A stretch of DNA of 64,000 nt from Caldinitratiruptor microaerophilus (GTDB lineage: Bacteria; Bacillota; Sulfobacillia; Symbiobacteriales; ZC4RG38): NCBI RefSeq assembly GCF_025999835.1, contig NZ_AP025628.1, forward strand, positions 3,410,001-3,474,000, given 5' to 3'. The position numbers and the translations under genes were made by a program. The stretch's first letter is position 1. Every line of letters starts with the position of its first letter. Shown piece by piece: positions 4,397 to 12,730 of the stretch. The notes under the pieces were generated by a model, which did no database searches, was not told the origin of the DNA, and saw only the letters and a program-made list of their open reading frames with translations.

Positions 4397-5707
4397 TCAG
4401 AGCCCCAGCGTCTCGGCCACCAGGTCGATCAGGTGCATGACCCGCACCTTCCCGCCGAGGCCGTGGCGCTCCACGCCGAGGAGCATCTGCATCTGGCAAC
4501 CCGGGTTGGCGACCACGATGACGTCGGGGTCGACGCCCTTCACGCTCGCCATCTTCCTGTCGAGGATCGCCTGGGACATCTCCGGGTGCGTCACGTTGTA
4601 GATCCCGGCCGAGCCGCAGCACTGGTCGGCACCCGGGAGCTCCACGTACTCGACGCCCGGAAGCCGGCGCAGGATCCTTCGGGGCTCCTGCCACACCCGC
4701 TGCACGTTGCGGAGGTGGCAGGAGTCCTGGTATGTCACGACGATGCGCGGCTTCGTCCCGGCGGCCGTCTCGCCGTCCTGCCAGCGGGGCGGCCCCGGCA
4801 GCTCGAGCAAGAGCTCGGACGCGTCGCGCACCCGGGCGGCGAAGGCCTCCGCCCGCGGCAGCCAGTCGGGCTCGTCCTCGAAGAGGCGGGGGTACTCCTT
4901 CAGGAAGGTCCCGCACCCCCCGGCGTTGTTGACGAGGTACTCGGCGCCGCTCCGCTCGAACGCCTCGATGTTCTGCCGCGCCAGCGCCTTCGCCTGCTCC
5001 CGGTCCCCGGCGTGGCCGTGAAGCGCCCCGCAGCAGCCGAACCCTGCCGCCGGGACAACCCGGGCGCCGAAGTGCTCGAGCACCCGCACCGTGCGGGCGT
5101 TGGTGCCCTCGAAGAGCGCGGCCTGGACGCAGCCGGGGAAGAACGCCACGGTGACCGTCCCGGGGCCCGTCCCCGGGGCGGTCTTGCGCGCGGGCGGCCG
5201 GAGCGCCCGCACCTGCTCGGCCTGGTCGGGAAGCATGGCCTCCAGGTTCCGCAGGCGGGCGGGCAAGAGGCGCCGGACCGCGGGGCGGCGGGCCAGGGCG
5301 CGCAGGCCGAGGGCCTGGTAGGCCCGCACCGCGCCCTTCAGGAGGCGCAGCCGCCGGGGGCGGGCCACGGTCCCCAGGAGGAGCCGCTGCATGCGCGGGT
5401 TGCCCGCCGGCGGGATGCCCGCCCTGTTCAGGAGGAAGCGGGTGTCGGCCAGCACGCGGTCGAACTCGACGCCCGAGGGGCAGGCCACCTCGCACGCCCG
5501 GCAGTCCAGGCAGAGGTACATGTGCTCGGCGACGTAGTCGCTGAGGGGCATCCGGCCGGCCATGACCTCCTCGGCGATGGCCAGCCGCCCCCGCGGAGAG
5601 GCCATCTCGAGCCCCGTCTCCAGGAACGTCGGGCAGGCGGGAAGGCAGAAGCCGCATTTATTGCAGTGGTCCAGCTGGCGAAGGGCGGCCGTGCTATACC
5701 CTTCCAC
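4397..5707 (-). CDS. glcF: Glycolate oxidase iron-sulfur subunit GlcF
   Basis: At 436 residues this is full length for GlcF. Two [4Fe-4S] motifs lie near the N terminus: CNKCGFCLPACP (about residues 15-26) and CLDCRACEVACPSG (about residues 66-79). Two CCG domains follow, recognisable by GFGCCGALHGHAGD and by DQCCGSAGIYN; they bind the additional cluster of heterodisulfide-reductase-like proteins. The subunit passes electrons from the flavin subunits to the quinone pool. It is the last gene of glcDEF, and its ATG at 5707 lies within the end of glcE (14-bp overlap), consistent with translational coupling. Confidence 0.93.
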   Translation of the reverse strand: MEGYSTAALRQLDHCNKCGFCLPACPTFLETGLEMASPRGRLAIAEEVMAGRMPLSDYVAEHMYLCLDCRACEVACPSGVEFDRVLADTRFLLNRAGIPPAGNPRMQRLLLGTVARPRRLRLLKGAVRAYQALGLRALARRPAVRRLLPARLRNLEAMLPDQAEQVRALRPPARKTAPGTGPGTVTVAFFPGCVQAALFEGTNARTVRVLEHFGARVVPAAGFGCCGALHGHAGDREQAKALARQNIEAFERSGAEYLVNNAGGCGTFLKEYPRLFEDEPDWLPRAEAFAARVRDASELLLELPGPPRWQDGETAAGTKPRIVVTYQDSCHLRNVQRVWQEPRRILRRLPGVEYVELPGADQCCGSAGIYNVTHPEMSQAILDRKMASVKGVDPDVIVVANPGCQMQMLLGVERHGLGGKVRVMHLIDLVAETLGL

Positions 5708-7010
5708 CCGCCGACCCTCCCTTCGCGTGGACGGTTTCCGACGCCGCCATGGCGGGCGCCGGCCCCCCGGGCTCCGGCAGCAGGAAGGCGGCCCCGGCCA
5801 GCACCCCGTCCGGGTCGAACACGGCCTTCAGGCGCCGGTGCAGGTGGCCGTCGGGCGAGGGGGCCGTCCAGGGCAGGTCCCCGAGGGATCCCGGTGGGGC
5901 GCCGCGCACCTGGAGGTAGCCGCCGAGGGCTTCCGCCCGCCGGCGCAGCTCCTGCACGGCAGGCACGAGGCCGGCCGGGGCGTCCGGTTCGCCCGCGCCG
6001 CCGGGCGGCTCGCTGCCCGCCGGGATGACGATCTCGAGGACGCCGCCGTAGCCCCGGGCGATCCCGTCCCACGCCCGGCCGGCGAGCACCTCGGCGGCGT
6101 CCGACCAGAGGCGGGGCAGTTCGGACGGGCGGACGCCGGCGCGCAGCCTCAGCACGGCCGGCCCGAACAGCCGCTCCCGGCGGGCGTTCCACAGGGCCGC
6201 GGCGCCATCGCCGCCGGCCAGCTCGACCCCGTCCCCGGTCCCGGGGGCGAGCCCCGCGGCGCGCCGGAGTTCCTGCGCCGCCGCCCCCGACTGGTGCTCG
6301 ACCGCCCGGGTCGGGCCCTCGAACGCCAGCAGCACCTCCACGCCGGGGCCGGCGCGCAGCCACTCGGCGGCGACCAGGGTGCTCGCCTGGCGCCTCAGCG
6401 GCGAGAGCGCCGCCCAGGCGGCCGCGGGCGTCTCGAAGCGGGCCCGCAGGGTGACGTGGCGCTCGGGGCGCGGGGCGATCCGCAGGCTCACCTCGACCAG
6501 CACGGCCAGCATGCCCAGCGATCCCACCAGGACCCGGTGCACGTTGTACCCGGCGACGTTCTTGATCATCTCTCCGCCGGGGCGCACCTCCCTGCCGTCG
6601 GGCAGCACGGCCAGCACGCCCAGGACCCAGTCTCTCGCCGGGCCCAGCCCGGTACGCCGGATCCCGGCCGTCGCGGCGGCCACGTGCCCGCCCACCGTGG
6701 CGGCGCCGCCGTCGCCGGCGTCGACGGGATACCACAGCCCGTGGGGCGCCAGCAGCGCGTCGAGCTGGTGGAGCCGCCACCAGGCCGGCACCGTGACGGT
6801 GAGGTTGGCGGCGCTCAGCCGGGGCTCGGCGGGAAGCGCCCGGAGGTCGAGCCCGACAGCCGGCAGCCGGCCCCACCTCGCCCACTGGCTGCCGGCTCCC
6901 CGCGGAGAGAGTCCCGGACCGCCCCGGGCCTCGCGGAGGAGGCGGGCGAGTTCACCGGCGCTCGCCGGCCGCAACACGGTGTCCGGAGACGCGGTCGGTT
7001 CTTCGGGCAT
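5694..7010 (-). CDS. glcE: Glycolate oxidase FAD-binding subunit GlcE
   Basis: The predicted protein is 438 residues, starting MPEEPTASPDTVLRP at the ATG at 7010. The frame is open for about 1.9 kb upstream of this ATG, but the homologous region begins here, 20 bp after the glcD stop. A PCMH-type FAD-binding domain is shown by GLSPRGAGSQWARWG, TVGGHVAAATAGIRR and the characteristic GGEMIKNVAGYNVHRVLVG segment of GlcE, which lacks the large C-terminal cap of GlcD. It is the second flavin subunit of the three-part glycolate dehydrogenase. The proteins of this family are usually about 350-400 residues. Confidence 0.9.
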   Translation of the reverse strand: MPEEPTASPDTVLRPASAGELARLLREARGGPGLSPRGAGSQWARWGRLPAVGLDLRALPAEPRLSAANLTVTVPAWWRLHQLDALLAPHGLWYPVDAGDGGAATVGGHVAAATAGIRRTGLGPARDWVLGVLAVLPDGREVRPGGEMIKNVAGYNVHRVLVGSLGMLAVLVEVSLRIAPRPERHVTLRARFETPAAAWAALSPLRRQASTLVAAEWLRAGPGVEVLLAFEGPTRAVEHQSGAAAQELRRAAGLAPGTGDGVELAGGDGAAALWNARRERLFGPAVLRLRAGVRPSELPRLWSDAAEVLAGRAWDGIARGYGGVLEIVIPAGSEPPGGAGEPDAPAGLVPAVQELRRRAEALGGYLQVRGAPPGSLGDLPWTAPSPDGHLHRRLKAVFDPDGVLAGAAFLLPEPGGPAPAMAASETVHAKGGSAGGRV

Positions 7011-7030
7011 GGGTCGATGCCTCCCGGGGG

Positions 7031-8488
7031 CTAGACGTTGCGCCTGGGTGCCGCGACCGCCTTGCCGGGGTTCAGGCGCAGGGCGGGGTCGAAGGCCTGC
7101 CGCACGGACCACATGAGGCCGAGGAGGTCGGGGCCGAGCTGCAGCTCGAGGTTCGGCAGCTTGTCGATCCCGATCCCGTGCTCGCCCGAGATCGAACCGC
7201 CCAGGGCGACGCAGGCGGCCAGGATCTCCTGGTCGGCGGCCTTCATGCGGCGGATCTCGTCCGCGTCCTGGGGGTCGTAGGCCACCAGCGGGTGCAGGTT
7301 GCCGTCGCCGGCGTGGGCCACGTTGATGAGGCGGATCCCGTACTTCCGGCCGATCGCCTGGACCGTGCGCAGCATCTCCACGAGGCGGTCCCGGGGCACC
7401 GTCACGTCCTGGGTCCACACGTGGGCGCTCAGGCGGCCCGCGGCCCCGTACGCGGCCCGACGGCCCAGCCAGAGCGCCTCCCGCTCCGCCTCCGTCTTGG
7501 CGACCCGCAATTCCCGCACCCCGTTTCGCCGGCAGACCGCCTCGACCCGGGCGAGTTCGTCGGCCACCGACTCCTCTGGGCCGTCGACCTCGATGAGGAG
7601 GACGGCCTCGGCATCCTCGGGGTAGCCGGCCCGGGCGTAGCGCTCCACCACCTCGATGGTCCCGCGGTCGAGGAGCTCCATCGTGGCGGGGACCACCCGG
7701 GCGGCGATGATGTCGGAGACGGTCTGCATCGCCACCTCGAGGTCGTCGAAGATGGCGAGGAGGGTGCGGACGACCGGCGGCAGCGGCAGGATCCGTACCA
7801 CGAGCTCGGTGATGACCCCGAGCGTGCCCTCGGACCCCACGAGCAGGCTCACCAGATCGTACCCGGGCCGGTCCTGCTCCGGCCCGCCGAGGCGCACCAC
7901 CTCGCCGTCGGCGAGGACCACCGTCAGCCCGAGCACGTGGTTGACCGTGACGCCGTACTTGAGGCAGTGCGGCCCGCCGGCGTTCTCGCCCGCGTTGCCG
8001 CCCACGGTGGAGACCCGGTGGCTCGAGGGGTCGGGGGCGAAGAAGAAGCCGTGCGGCCTGAGCGCCTCCTGGAGCGCCAGGTTGCGCAGCCCCGGCTGGA
8101 CGGTGGCCGTGTGGTTCTCGGTGTCGATCGCCAGGATGCGGTCCATGCGGTTCATGGCCAGGCAGAGCCCGCCCGTGACCGGGATCGTCCCGCCGCTGAT
8201 GTTCGTGCCGCCCCCGCGCGCGATGACCGGGAGCCCGTGGCGGGCCGCGATGCGCACCGCGTCCGCCACGTCCTCGGTGCTCAGGGGGAACACGACGGCG
8301 TCGGGCGGGTACTTTTCGCCGGTGGCGTCGTACGCGTAGGCCATCCGGTCCCGGAAGTCGGTCAGGACCCGGCCCGGGCCGAAGCGCTCCACGAGTTCCC
8401 GGTGCGCCGCCTCCAGCTTGTCCGGCGGCAGCGCGACGGCCCGGGGGAAGCCCTCCGGACCTGGCTGGGGGGCGACGAGGTTCGCCAT
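7031..8488 (-). CDS. glcD: Glycolate/D-lactate oxidase FAD-linked subunit GlcD
   Basis: The predicted protein is 485 residues from ATG at 8488, preceded by GAGGGGAG. The frame stays open far upstream, but recognisable GlcD sequence starts here. FAD-binding PCMH motifs are present: PVIARGGGTNISGG, STVGGNAGENAGGP and LLVGSEGTLGVITE. The C-terminal FAD-oxidase domain carries the HAGDGNLHP and GSISGEHGIG motifs, whose His residues sit at the flavin and metal site. It oxidises glycolate (or D-lactate) to the 2-oxoacid as the catalytic subunit of glcDEF. Substrate preference cannot be read from sequence alone. It is the first gene of the operon and divergent from the ModE-like regulator gene. Confidence 0.92.
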   Translation of the reverse strand: MANLVAPQPGPEGFPRAVALPPDKLEAAHRELVERFGPGRVLTDFRDRMAYAYDATGEKYPPDAVVFPLSTEDVADAVRIAARHGLPVIARGGGTNISGGTIPVTGGLCLAMNRMDRILAIDTENHTATVQPGLRNLALQEALRPHGFFFAPDPSSHRVSTVGGNAGENAGGPHCLKYGVTVNHVLGLTVVLADGEVVRLGGPEQDRPGYDLVSLLVGSEGTLGVITELVVRILPLPPVVRTLLAIFDDLEVAMQTVSDIIAARVVPATMELLDRGTIEVVERYARAGYPEDAEAVLLIEVDGPEESVADELARVEAVCRRNGVRELRVAKTEAEREALWLGRRAAYGAAGRLSAHVWTQDVTVPRDRLVEMLRTVQAIGRKYGIRLINVAHAGDGNLHPLVAYDPQDADEIRRMKAADQEILAACVALGGSISGEHGIGIDKLPNLELQLGPDLLGLMWSVRQAFDPALRLNPGKAVAAPRRNV

Positions 8489-8914
8489 GTTCCGTACTCC
8501 CCTCGCACCTGAGGTGAACGCTGGTGGAGGGTTCGACCCGGCCGGTGGCCTTCCCTGCCGTCGGGACGGCGCTCCGGCGCTGCCTGGTCGAGCGGTCCCT
8601 GCGGAGGGACGACTGCAGATATTGCAGACCGGCTGCGAAGCTTCGTTTGCAAAACCGCGGTTCTCGTGCCCGTGTGGTCTGCTGGGCAACGCGGGGGACC
8701 GCCGAAGCACCTCGCGCGTGCACCCCATCGCGGCGCGGTACGGCTGCACCGGCACCCCGCAGGACGGCGCGCGGGGCCGAGCGTACAGGCCCGCAACCCT
8801 TCGTCCTGCGGGTGTCCGATCGCCCCCCGTGCGGCCGGGCGGAATGGTGCTTCGCGGAACCGAACGATCCCCCGCGACACCCAACTTGACGCCACATCGG
8901 TGGGGGCAGAACCA
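8489..8914. other. 426-bp divergent intergenic region with palindromes
   Basis: This gap separates glcD (minus) from the ModE-TupA fusion gene (plus). No convincing ORF is seen. It holds a short hairpin GTCCCT-gcgg-AGGGAC near 8596-8611, a direct repeat TGCAG.TATTGCAG near 8614-8627, and a perfect 10-bp palindrome CGAAGCTTCG at 8636-8645 followed by TTTGCAAAA. These AT-richer bases (8610-8656) are the likely promoter/operator zone of glcD, but no clean -35/-10 pair stands out. The right half is GC-rich with no signal I can name. Confidence 0.4.
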
Positions 8915-10105
8915 TTGAACCGGGTCCGGGCGCGAACCGGGTCCGATGGGGAGGTGGCCGGCCTGGGCGATCCCGGCTACCGCGTCCTGCTCACCCTGGG
9001 GGACGACGTCCCCGCCGACCGCCTCTTCGCGCTCCTGGAGGCGATCGTCCGCCTCGGGTCGCTGAACCGGGCCGCCGCGGAGCTCGGCATGTCGTACCGC
9101 CACGCGTGGGGCCTGGTCCGGCGCGCCGAGGGGCGCCTGAACGTCCGCCTTCTCGACCGGCGGGTCGGCGGCCCCGAAGGCGGCGGCGCCGACCTCACGC
9201 CGGCCGCACAGGACCTCCTCGCCCGCTACCGGCAGTTCCGGGCGGAGGTGGAGGGGCACGCCGGGGTCCTGGCGGGTCAGGCGCCCGCACCCGGGAGGCC
9301 GGACCGGCGGGAGCGGGCGCTCGTCCTGGCCAGCACGATCGGCCCGGTCGAGGTGGGCCTCGTGCCCGCCCTGGCCGCCGCCTTCCTCCAGGAGACCGGG
9401 ATCGCCGTGCGCCCGGTCGCGGCGGGGAGCGGCCAGGCGCTGGACATGGCCCGGGAGGGCCGGGCCGACCTCGTCCTCAGCCACGCGCCCCGGCAGGAGG
9501 AGGCCTTCGTCGCGGCCGGCCACGGCACGGGGCGGTTCCCCGTGATGTACAACGACTTCGTTTTGGTCGGCCCGCCGGACGACCCGGCCGGGGTCCGGGA
9601 TGCCGGCTCGGCCGTGGACGCGCTCCGGCGCATCGCCCAGTGCCGTGCGCCCTTCCGCAGCCGGGGCGACCGCTCCGGGACGCACGTACGGGAGCTGGAG
9701 CTCTGGCGGGCGGCTGGTGTCCGGCCGGATGCCCCCTGGTATCAAGTGGACCCGCTCGGGGCGATGGGGAGCGTGCAGATGCTGCGGGAGGCCGCCCGAC
9801 TCGGATCCTACACGCTGGCCGACCGGGCGGCGTTTCTCACCGCCGGCGTGGAGGGTCTCGCCGTCCTCCTTGCCGGCGACCCGGCCCTGCGCAACGAGTT
9901 CAGCCTGATCCCCGTCAGCCCGCTCCGGGTCCCGTGGGCCCGGCACGAGGAGGCGGCGGCCTTCGTGCGGTGGGCGACGGGCCCCCGGGGACAGGCGCTG
10001 ATCGCGGGGTTCGGCAAGGACCGCCACGGGGAGCCGCTCTTCTTCCCGGCGACGCCCGCCGGAGGCGCCGGCACGCCTCCGGCCGGGCCGGTGCGCCGGG
10101 CTTGA
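8915..10105 (+). CDS. ModE-type HTH fused to a TupA-like oxyanion-binding domain (one-component regulator)
   Basis: Residues about 15-95 match the ModE/LysR-type winged helix (EAIVRLGSLNRAAAELGMSY, then RLNVRLLDRRVGG and DLTPAAQDLL). The rest is a periplasmic-binding-protein domain without signal peptide, similar to the TupA product downstream; compare SRGDRSGTHVRELELW here with SRGDDSGTHKKEQSLW in TupA. The family's oxyanion motif TTSTQDSGLL is altered to ASTIGPVEVG, so ligand affinity may differ. The likely role is a cytoplasmic tungstate/molybdate sensor controlling tupABC. TTG at 8915 is chosen because GGGGG precedes it; GTG 8954 is an alternative. Length is 396 residues. A perfect pair of ModE-like boxes lies directly downstream. 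Confidence 0.82.
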   Translation: MNRVRARTGSDGEVAGLGDPGYRVLLTLGDDVPADRLFALLEAIVRLGSLNRAAAELGMSYRHAWGLVRRAEGRLNVRLLDRRVGGPEGGGADLTPAAQDLLARYRQFRAEVEGHAGVLAGQAPAPGRPDRRERALVLASTIGPVEVGLVPALAAAFLQETGIAVRPVAAGSGQALDMAREGRADLVLSHAPRQEEAFVAAGHGTGRFPVMYNDFVLVGPPDDPAGVRDAGSAVDALRRIAQCRAPFRSRGDRSGTHVRELELWRAAGVRPDAPWYQVDPLGAMGSVQMLREAARLGSYTLADRAAFLTAGVEGLAVLLAGDPALRNEFSLIPVSPLRVPWARHEEAAAFVRWATGPRGQALIAGFGKDRHGEPLFFPATPAGGAGTPPAGPVRRA

Positions 10106-10131
10106 CTCGTCGGAGATCGCTCGGGTACGTT
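10102..10131 (+). promoter_or_regulatory. Possible sigma-A promoter for tupABC
   Basis: TTGACT (10102-10107) and TACGTT (10126-10131) are separated by 18 bp. The -10 overlaps the first ModE-like operator, which would fit direct repression. The -10 match is weak, and the -35 overlaps the stop region of the upstream gene. Confidence 0.4.
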
Positions 10132-10151
10132 ATGCATGATCAAACATAACG
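10128..10151. promoter_or_regulatory. ModE-type operator 1 upstream of tupA
   Basis: A perfect inverted repeat CGTTATG-N10-CATAACG spans 24 bp. Arm sequence and spacing closely resemble the ModE operator of the enterobacterial modA promoter (established knowledge). It lies 60 bp before the tupA start and overlaps the putative -10. Confidence 0.8.
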
Positions 10152-10165
10152 GCTCGGCGTGGAGC

Positions 10166-10189
10166 CGCTATGTTCTGGCGTACATAACG
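10166..10189. promoter_or_regulatory. ModE-type operator 2 upstream of tupA
   Basis: CGCTATG-N10-CATAACG repeats operator 1 with one arm mismatch and exactly the same 24-bp architecture. The two centres are 38 bp apart, so this site lies downstream of the presumed transcription start and could act as a second repressor site. Confidence 0.78.
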
Positions 10190-10210
10190 ACTCGCCAGGG
10201 GGCGTCGCGG

Positions 10211-11137
10211 TTGGAGGGCAGGCGGGTACGTGCAGCTGTACTGGTTGCGTTCCTGGCAGGGGTCCTGGCGGCGACGGCTTGCGGAAGGCGGCCGGCGACC
10301 ACGGAGGCGGGCGCAGGGCAAGAGCGGGGGGAGACCACGGCGCAAGAAGCGCCGAAGCCTGCCACCCCGGACGTGATCCTGGCCACCACCACCAGCACGC
10401 AGGACAGCGGGCTCCTGGACGTGCTGGTGCCGATGTTCGAGCAGAAGACGGGCTACCGGGTGAAGACCATCGCCGTCGGCACCGGACAGGCGCTGGCGAT
10501 GGCCGAGCGCGGCGAGGCGGACGTTGTCCTGGTTCACGCACCGGATGCGGAGAAGGCGGTGGTGGAGAAGGGGGCGGTGGTGGACCGCCGGCTCGTCATG
10601 CACAACGACTTCGTCCTCGTGGGTCCGCCGGACGACCCGGCGCGGGTGCGGGGCACCGGCACCGCCGTGGAGGCCTTCAAGAGGATCGCCGCGGCGGGGG
10701 CGCTCTTCGTGTCCCGGGGCGACGACTCGGGCACGCACAAGAAGGAGCAGTCCCTCTGGAAAGCCGCCGGCATCACGCCGCAGGGCACCTGGTACCAGGA
10801 GTCCGGCTCCGGGATGGGCCAGACCCTGAACATCGCCTCGGAGAAAGGCGGCTACACCCTGACCGACCGGGCCACGTACCTCGCCCTCAGGAAGAACCTG
10901 CGCCTCGCCATCGTCCTGGAGGGCGACGCGCCCCTTCTCAACGTCTACCACGTCATGCGGGTGAACCCGCAGAAGTTCAGCAAGGTCAACGCGGAGGGGG
11001 GCAAGGCGTTCGTGGAATTCCTGGTCGCCCCCGAGACCCAGGCGCTCATCGGCAAGTTCGGGGTGGACAAGTTCGGACAGCCCCTGTTCTTCCCGGACGC
11101 CGGCAAGCGCGAAGACGAACTCGGCGCGAAGAGCTGA
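10211..11137 (+). CDS. tupA: Tungstate-binding lipoprotein TupA
   Basis: This is the substrate-binding protein of a TupABC tungstate importer, 308 residues from TTG at 10211. That start is chosen because CAGGGGGCG precedes it and the leader then reads LEGRRVRAAVLVAFLAGVLA with a lipobox-like ATAC; the upstream ATG at 10136 would lie inside the ModE operators. After the lipidated Cys comes a Thr/Glu linker, then the oxyanion motif TTTSTQDSGLLDVLVP typical of TupA. The conserved SRGDDSGTHKKEQ and YTLTDRATYL segments line the binding site. Tungstate rather than molybdate is inferred from the TupA family resemblance. Confidence 0.9.
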   Translation: MEGRRVRAAVLVAFLAGVLAATACGRRPATTEAGAGQERGETTAQEAPKPATPDVILATTTSTQDSGLLDVLVPMFEQKTGYRVKTIAVGTGQALAMAERGEADVVLVHAPDAEKAVVEKGAVVDRRLVMHNDFVLVGPPDDPARVRGTGTAVEAFKRIAAAGALFVSRGDDSGTHKKEQSLWKAAGITPQGTWYQESGSGMGQTLNIASEKGGYTLTDRATYLALRKNLRLAIVLEGDAPLLNVYHVMRVNPQKFSKVNAEGGKAFVEFLVAPETQALIGKFGVDKFGQPLFFPDAGKREDELGAKS

Positions 11138-11143
11138 GCCGAG

Positions 11144-11842
11144 ATGGACCTCGTGTGGCAGGGGCTCGTCAGGGCATTCGAGATGTTGCTTGCCGGAGAC
11201 CCGGAACTGGGCCGCATCACGTGGCTCACGCTCCGGGTCTCCGGCACCGCCACGCTCGTCAGCGTCGTCCTCGGGGTGCCGACCGGGGTGCTCCTGGCGC
11301 TGGGCCGCTTCCCCGGCCGGCGGCTCCTCATCAGCCTCGTGAACACCGGCATGGGTCTGCCGCCGGTGGTGGTGGGGCTGTGGGTGAGCCTTCTCCTGTG
11401 GCGTTACGGTCCCCTGGGCTTCCTGAATCTCATGTACACCCCGGCCGCCATGGTGATCGCCCAGTCGGTCATCGCGACCCCGGTGGTGGCCGCCTTCACG
11501 GTGGCGGGGGTGGGGCAGCTGAATCCCCGCCTGGCCCTGCAGATCACGGCCATGGGCGCCTCCCGCTGGCAACTTTACTGGCTCCTGGTGCGTGAAGCCC
11601 GCCTCTCGATCCTGGCGGCGGTCATCGCCGGCTTCGGTTCGGTCGTCTCCGAGGTCGGGGCGTCCATGATGGTTGGCGGGAACGTGCTGGGCCAGACCCG
11701 GGTCCTGACGACCGCAACGGTCATGGAGGTGTCCAAGGGGAACTTCGACGTGGCGCTGGCCCTCAGCGTGATCCTCCTGGCCCTGACCTACGGCGTCACG
11801 GCGGTGCTCACGCTGGTCCAGCAGAGGAGGCGACCGGCGTGA
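11144..11842 (+). CDS. tupB: Tungstate ABC transporter permease TupB
   Basis: The 232-residue membrane protein has about five to six transmembrane helices (first at about 30-52, LRVSGTATLVSVVLGVPTGV). The binding-protein-dependent permease EAA loop is visible at about residues 135-155 (ITAMGASRWQLYWLLVREAR). It starts 6 bp after tupA and its last codons overlap tupC by 4 bp, so the three genes form one translationally coupled operon. GNVLGQTRVLTTA near the C terminus is shared with TupB-type permeases. It forms the channel for tungstate passed on by TupA. Confidence 0.9.
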   Translation: MDLVWQGLVRAFEMLLAGDPELGRITWLTLRVSGTATLVSVVLGVPTGVLLALGRFPGRRLLISLVNTGMGLPPVVVGLWVSLLLWRYGPLGFLNLMYTPAAMVIAQSVIATPVVAAFTVAGVGQLNPRLALQITAMGASRWQLYWLLVREARLSILAAVIAGFGSVVSEVGASMMVGGNVLGQTRVLTTATVMEVSKGNFDVALALSVILLALTYGVTAVLTLVQQRRRPA

Positions 11843-12624
11843 CCCCGCCCATCCTCGCGGCGTACGGCCTGCGCCTGGTGCGCGAGGGCCGGGCCGTCCT
11901 CGACATCCCCAGCCTGGAGGTGCGGGAGGGGGAGGTCCTGGCGGTGATCGGGCCCAACGGCGCGGGCAAGACGAGCCTGCTCCTGAGCCTGGCCCTGCTG
12001 CTCCCGGCCGAGATGGACTACCGCTTCGGCGGGCGCCCGGTCCGGCTGCCCCAGGAGAGCCTGGCGCTCCGGCGGCAGATGGCCGTCGTCTTCCAGGAGC
12101 CGCTCCTCCTGGACACGACCGTGCTGGAGAACGTGGTGTTGCCCCAGCGGCTGCGCGGGGTGCCGCGGGCCGAAGCCCGGTCCCGGGCAGAGGAGTGGCT
12201 CGAGCGCCTCGGTGTCTCCCACCTGGCGCGGCGGCACGCGCACGGGCTCTCCGGCGGAGAAGCGCAGCGCGTGAGCCTGGCCCGGGCCCTGGTGACCCGG
12301 CCGCGGGTCCTCTTCCTGGACGAACCCTTCGCCTCCCTCGACGTCGTCACCCGGGGCGACCTCCTCCGGGACCTGCCTGCCCTCCTGAGGGCGGTGGGTG
12401 CAACGGCGCTCTTCGTCACCCACGACTTCACGGAGATCCCGCCGATCGCCGATCGGGTCGCTGTACTGAGCGGCGGGCGACTCGTGCAGATCGGCACGCC
12501 CCGGGAGGTGTTCACCCGCCCGGCAGGAGAGCTGGTGTCACGCCTCGTGCGCCATGCGGCGGATCTCGTCCGGGCGCTCGGCGGCGATCCCGCCCACGGG
12601 AGCGGCGCGGCGGAGGTGCACTGA
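11839..12624 (+). CDS. tupC: Tungstate ABC transporter ATP-binding protein TupC
   Basis: This 261-residue ATPase has Walker [10 protein letters not shown] (residues 38-46), signature LSGGEAQRVSLARAL (about 137-151), Walker B VLFLDEP and the switch His in TALFVTHD. It overlaps tupB by the GTGA of its start codon. The C-terminal extension is short and no TOBE/molybdate-binding domain is evident, which separates it from ModC. It energises tungstate uptake, presumably to supply tungsto- or molybdoenzymes elsewhere in the genome. A terminator-like hairpin follows. Confidence 0.9.
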   Translation: MTPPILAAYGLRLVREGRAVLDIPSLEVREGEVLAVIGPNGAGKTSLLLSLALLLPAEMDYRFGGRPVRLPQESLALRRQMAVVFQEPLLLDTTVLENVVLPQRLRGVPRAEARSRAEEWLERLGVSHLARRHAHGLSGGEAQRVSLARALVTRPRVLFLDEPFASLDVVTRGDLLRDLPALLRAVGATALFVTHDFTEIPPIADRVAVLSGGRLVQIGTPREVFTRPAGELVSRLVRHAADLVRALGGDPAHGSGAAEVH

Positions 12625-12652
12625 GCCACCGACTTCCACAGCGGCTGCGGAA

Positions 12653-12683
12653 GGTGCCGGGCCCTGCGGCACCCAACTTTTTT
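12653..12683 (+). terminator. Rho-independent terminator after tupC
   Basis: Stem GGTGCCG (12653-12659) pairs with CGGCACC (12667-12673) over a 7-base loop and is followed by CAAC and a run of six T (12678-12683). It sits 29 bp after the tupC stop. Confidence 0.65.
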
Positions 12684-12730
12684 CCCGTCAATCGGGTATA
12701 AGGGAATGGGTCCGATCAGGTGGGTGCTCC

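Follow-up and report, generated by a model that had tools for sequence, protein, structure and literature searches.

In the 64,000-nucleotide stretch of the Caldinitratiruptor microaerophilus genome analyzed here (the window), the gene upstream of the tungstate importer operon tupABC encodes a ModE-type winged helix joined to a TupA-type oxyanion-binding domain, and, judged from the sequences, this fusion protein probably acts as a cytoplasmic one-component sensor of tungstate, perhaps of molybdate, that controls tupABC, probably as its repressor. In the proposed mechanism, a dimer of the winged helices would bind one or both of the CGTTATG-N10-CATAACG palindromes that precede tupABC, while the TupA-type domain would hold an oxyanion, most likely tungstate and perhaps also molybdate. 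When tungstate is ample, the loaded form would most likely repress tupABC; by analogy with the action of ModE on modABC, repression at sufficiency is likelier than activation.

The regulator gene, provisionally named tupR, occupies positions 8915..10105 of the plus strand of the window and encodes 396 amino acids. It starts at TTG 8915, preceded by a plausible ribosome site (gtgggggcag), and ends with a stop codon at 10103-10105. The ModE-type winged helix and the long linker helix that follows it (residues 36-120; 9020..9274, plus strand) match the NCBIfam profile ModE_repress (TIGR00637) over positions 5-89 of 100 with E 5.4e-18 and 64.9 bits, a score below the curated whole-protein cut-off of 98.5 bits, as are those of the free-standing HTH relatives. 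In a sequence match to known structures, the HTH is aligned with ModE (PDB 1b9m, E 2.2e-6). The sensor domain (residues 134-378; 9314..10048, plus strand) matches the TupA profile NF041772 with E 8.2e-40, also under the curated whole-protein cut-off, and superimposes on TupA of Desulfovibrio alaskensis (5my5) with Z 30.2 and an rmsd of 1.9 over 243 residues. Neither a signal peptide nor a lipobox is present in the fusion protein, the HTH beginning right at the N terminus, and no match to a TOBE domain is found anywhere in it, the C terminus being TupA-like. In the AlphaFold2 model (58 sequences, mean pLDDT 87.5), a long helix comprising residues 96-119 connects the HTH with the sensor, and residues 1-19 are unreliable; the true start of the gene may lie further downstream than TTG 8915. 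The fusion of a ModE-type winged helix with a signal-less TupA-like domain, which the first-pass annotation had proposed, is thus borne out by the NCBIfam profiles and by the structural match with 5my5.

Two ModE-type palindromes are located within the 105-bp gap between the fusion gene and tupABC. Box 1 (CGTTATGCATGATCAAACATAACG, 10128..10151) reads CGTTATG-N10-CATAACG and has the 24-bp geometry known from E. coli modA; box 2 (CGCTATGTTCTGGCGTACATAACG, 10166..10189) reads CGCTATG-N10-CATAACG and lies 38 bp from box 1. In E. coli, the modA promoter region contains CGTTATATTGTCGCCTACATAACG (CGTTATA-N10-CATAACG), an established ModE site of identical geometry that shows one difference. Across the 3.6-Mb genome of C. 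microaerophilus, the exact pattern CGYTATG-N10-CATAACG is found at these two places only, and at up to two mismatches at five others, which is the level of a reversed-pattern control. When the gap was shuffled 20,000 times (dinucleotide shuffles), a single shuffle contained a site at no more than one mismatch and none contained two sites. The sequence and the genome scan confirm the earlier description of two boxes with identical geometry, 38 bp apart, directly before tupA, with one small correction: the tupA reading frame opens at ATG 10136, inside box 1, and the likely start is TTG 10211.

That TTG is probably the true start, as suggested by the lipobox LAATAC of the resulting protein and by AGGGGG upstream of the codon, and both boxes would then be wholly intergenic. 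So delimited, tupA (10211..11137, plus strand; NF041772, E 2.1e-70) encodes the tungstate-binding lipoprotein, its lipobox being read from the sequence, and is followed on the same strand by the permease gene tupB (11144..11842; NF041773 TupB, E 1.8e-42) and the ATPase gene tupC (11839..12624), assigned by its position after tupB, with the tungstate ATPase WtpC as the best NCBIfam match (E 3.9e-50). On the minus strand, divergent from the regulator, lies what appears to be a glycolate-oxidase-type set (glcD, glcE, and glcF; 4397-8499), recognized by reading only. A sigma-70 promoter scan of 8480-10260 yielded no clear promoter, so the position of the operator relative to the promoter cannot tell repression from activation; by inspection only, TTGACT (10102-10107) and TACGTT (10126-10131), taken as the -35 and -10 elements, would place box 1 on the -10 element. 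An Rfam search of 8300-12700 returned chance-level matches only, with no Moco/Tuco riboswitch among them.

About 45 genomes, mostly of Bacillota, contain the fusion, and in them it usually adjoins tupABC. About eleven of 299 genomes of the phylum carry it, and a scan of named genomes, overlapping in part with that set, gave about 43 fusion loci, chiefly in Bacillota. The hosts comprise Dethiobacter, Syntrophomonadaceae, Clostridiaceae, Thermoanaerobacteraceae, one Spirochaetaceae, and a Symbiobacteriaceae MAG, the last of which carries the closest relative of the window fusion (57% over the query). In most fusion loci tupABC is adjacent, in the same or the divergent direction, and the box precedes the unit containing tupA; in L076 and L090, the fusion and a box are found directly before tupB-tupC, with no tupA there. 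The aligned boxes are best conserved in TATG(C)A ... CATA and weaker in the outer bases. The spacing of exactly 38 bp is seen a second time in locus L085, where two ModE-type boxes (positions 2207 and 2245) precede tupA.

Since the box consensus was taken from the window, the relatives constitute an independent test of it. Boxes were sought up to 700 bp upstream of tupA, with mismatches counted over the 14 fixed bases and the expectation taken from dinucleotide shuffles. At up to three mismatches, a box is present in 29 of 34 fusion loci (0.4 expected), and at up to four in 33 (5.1 expected); in L099, the one locus left over, a perfect box stands ahead of the fusion, which there heads its tup operon. 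Loss of the box in relatives that keep the fusion and tupABC, which the first-pass annotation had named as the finding that would speak against it, was looked for, and the outcome was in its favor. Over all tup loci, a box at up to three mismatches accompanies 42 of the 50 with any ModE-type HTH vs. 9 of the 44 without one (nominal p 5e-10). These counts overstate the independent support, because the loci are related by descent, and the p-values here are nominal. Non-fusion tup loci with a free-standing ModE-type HTH (~110 residues) have a box at up to two mismatches in 13 of 17 cases; these 17 include L189 and L195, which lack the box, L094, which is a frameshifted fusion, and L048, which was counted twice. 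Such free-standing domains, with neither TOBE nor sensor, precede tupABC with the same box in, for example, L048 (5809-6135), L150 (769-1098), L151 (6356-6691), L152 (7764-8090), and L082 (5965-6303). Where no ModE HTH is nearby, a box is found in 6 of 44 tup loci, and every one of the six HTH-less loci whose box has no more than one mismatch belongs to a genome with a ModE HTH at another place, compared with 8 of 37 other genomes (~5e-4, calculated by hand). The pairing of a ModE-type HTH and a TupA-type sensor with canonical ModE boxes before tupABC, as first suggested, is supported. The presence of a bare HTH with the same box beside many tup operons means, at the same time, that the box can do without a fused sensor, which counts against the preferred explanation.

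The likely ligand residues of TupA are the TTTS loop (residues 9-12), His59, Arg118, Thr124, and Asp170 (PMC5517513). The last four are invariant in all 46 distinct fusions, whereas the TTTS loop, kept in essentially all transporter TupAs, is intact in none of them: 44 retain Thr10, all have Met, Leu, or Ile in place of Thr11, and Ser12 has given way to Glu in 41 and to Gly in five, the window fusion being one of the five. In the window fusion, STIG takes the position of TTTS, within the remodeled loop ASTIGPVEVG (9329..9358, plus strand). The contrast between this loop and TTSTQDSGLL of the neighboring TupA, pointed out at first pass, is real; it is not peculiar to this genome, the altered motif being constant throughout the fusion family.

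These replacements at positions 11 and 12 are one ground for supposing that the protein acts on the same DNA target and operon while its sensor reads something else, be it another oxyanion, a polyoxo form, a metabolite, or a protein partner. The glutamate at position 12 in 41 of the 46 fusions is unfavorable to an anion, counts against the tungstate reading, and could be a sign of a different ligand; in addition, secreted paralogues with an ASTIGP loop stand beside TupA in several genomes, making a second specificity within tup loci conceivable. With the four other pocket residues invariant in every fusion and a neighborhood consisting mostly of tupABC, such a ligand seems unlikely. If the sensor instead reads tungstate, as we prefer, a cytoplasmic protein that bound as tightly as TupA, with sub-nanomolar affinity, would never be empty; weakened binding is therefore to be expected, and the changed TTTS loop presumably brings the affinity down into the intracellular range. 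ModE differs from importer proteins in the same sense, as it binds more weakly (about 0.8 uM) than ModA (2-27 nM) or TupA (about 0.5 nM) (PMC11980592).

The sensor domains of the fusions form one side of a well-supported branch (99/96), apart from all transporter TupAs, including that of this genome, as well as from the five secreted paralogues with the ASTIGP loop. The HTHs of the fusions also lie on one side of a branch (97/92), apart from the free-standing HTHs, in a tree based on few columns and with long outgroup branches. One single joining event fits both trees, whose root is not fixed. The HTHs that come closest are TOBE-less ModE-type domains standing on their own, and many of them adjoin tupABC and have the same box. 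It is therefore likelier that a bare ModE HTH gained a sensor than that TOBE domains were swapped for one, as had been assumed at first. Nor did the accompanying idea that the sensor is the domain of the transporter itself survive, the fusion sensors being a clade of their own, separate from every transporter TupA. We can speculate that a single ancient joining of a bare ModE helix with a TupA relative led to a family whose re-cut pocket (Ser12 to Glu or Gly) responds to another state of cellular tungsten than the one read by TupA, for example to something else than free tungstate, and in which the glutamate would hold Arg118 while the pocket is unloaded, but this appears doubtful. Secreted paralogues of TupA, their loop reading ASTIGPIDAG, are found in L045 (2856-3602), L046 (8077-8823), L047 (7904-8701), L048 (7178-8029), and L049 (6624-7370); in four of these loci an ordinary TupA stands in tandem with them, and the paralogues, a clade to themselves, may differ in specificity.

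The arrangement of a winged helix, a long helix, and a type II binding domain is common to LysR-type regulators such as CysB, and Foldseek aligns LysR proteins with the fusion over most of its length. Together with the Pfam label of the HTH (HTH_1) and the two boxes 38 bp apart in the window and in L085, this would agree with a LysR-like mode, in which a tetramer always bound to DNA across the two boxes would activate tupABC upon binding of a ligand or in its absence. That mode is nevertheless improbable, since both the HTH and the sensor families differ by their profile scores. The HTH fits ModE far better than any LysR equivalog (E 5e-18 vs. 1.5e-3), and the sensor is of the TupA type (Z 30), scoring 24.9 bits against LysR_substrate (PF03466), under the cut-off of 28, and 85 bits against PBP_like_2. 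The sites, moreover, are separate ModE palindromes, of which most relatives have only one.

It is very improbable that the boxes serve another regulator and that the fusion gene is degenerate or only a bystander, for although boxes are also present in loci without a fusion, those loci have a free-standing ModE HTH near tupA or elsewhere (six of six near-perfect cases), the genome studied here has no ModE-type HTH other than that of the fusion, and the reading frame and pocket of the latter are conserved. A second TIGR00637 match in this genome was rejected as a ModE-type HTH, being an ordinary LysR gene. The sole TOBE domain of the genome is part of a sugar-type ATPase, no TOBE regulator was found, and its modA has no box within two mismatches. 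Five genes of the AOR family (aldehyde ferredoxin oxidoreductase-type), at 779, 1779, 2224, 167, and 293 kb (G000:C1; L141-L145), make a need of the organism for tungsten likely; a box-like site with two mismatches lies ~4 kb from an AOR gene, and no obvious operon begins there.

ModE of E. coli senses molybdate via two C-terminal TOBE domains. It shares with the fusion the winged-helix family, the 24-bp geometry of the box, and the position of the latter before an oxyanion importer, and differs in having the TOBE pair where the fusion has a TupA-type domain. TunR of sulfate reducers is a tungstate-responsive regulator with a ModE-type HTH, but its sensing is of the TOBE type and its site is different. 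Variants of ModE are said to have been discussed in a 2008 survey of molybdoproteomes. TupA (5my5, 3lr1) resembles the entire sensor domain (about 40% identity, Z 30, four pocket residues), yet it is secreted and has the TTTS loop, whereas the fusion sensor lacks a signal peptide, has the loop (S/T)T(M/L/I)(E/G), and belongs to a separate clade. TaoR, cited as the regulator of a tungsten enzyme (PMC11980592), and the XRE-HTH/PBP_like (COG1910-type) regulators likewise consist of an HTH joined to a periplasmic-binding-protein-like domain; their HTH is HTH_17 or HTH_3, in contrast to the ModE-type HTH of the fusion, and the XRE-PBP_like protein adjoining modABC in L064 has a PF12727 domain, unlike the TupA-type PF12849 of the fusion.

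A literature search covering few subscription papers found no published description of a ModE-HTH/TupA fusion, so an earlier mention is possible. The parts and the principle are already known (ModE, TupA, the LysR layout, and HTH-PBP regulators such as TaoR), and the combination is very probably unstudied, as far as can be checked. For tungsten uptake, very few regulatory systems are known, and the fusion, its site, and the importer make up a recurring, testable set across anaerobic Bacillota. The uptake of a transporter-type binding domain would represent a second route by which ModE-type DNA-binding domains read an oxyanion. Because the sensor and the importer protein are homologous and encoded in one locus, the differences between their pockets lend themselves to a natural comparison of what determines tungstate affinity and selectivity. 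In L064 (1852-3975), L057 (7192-8448), and L041 (7899), modABC is preceded by a variant box, CGTTATAC-N8-GTATAACG or close to it; the neighbor of this box is an XRE-HTH/PBP_like protein in L064 and a divergent free-standing ModE HTH in L057 and L041.
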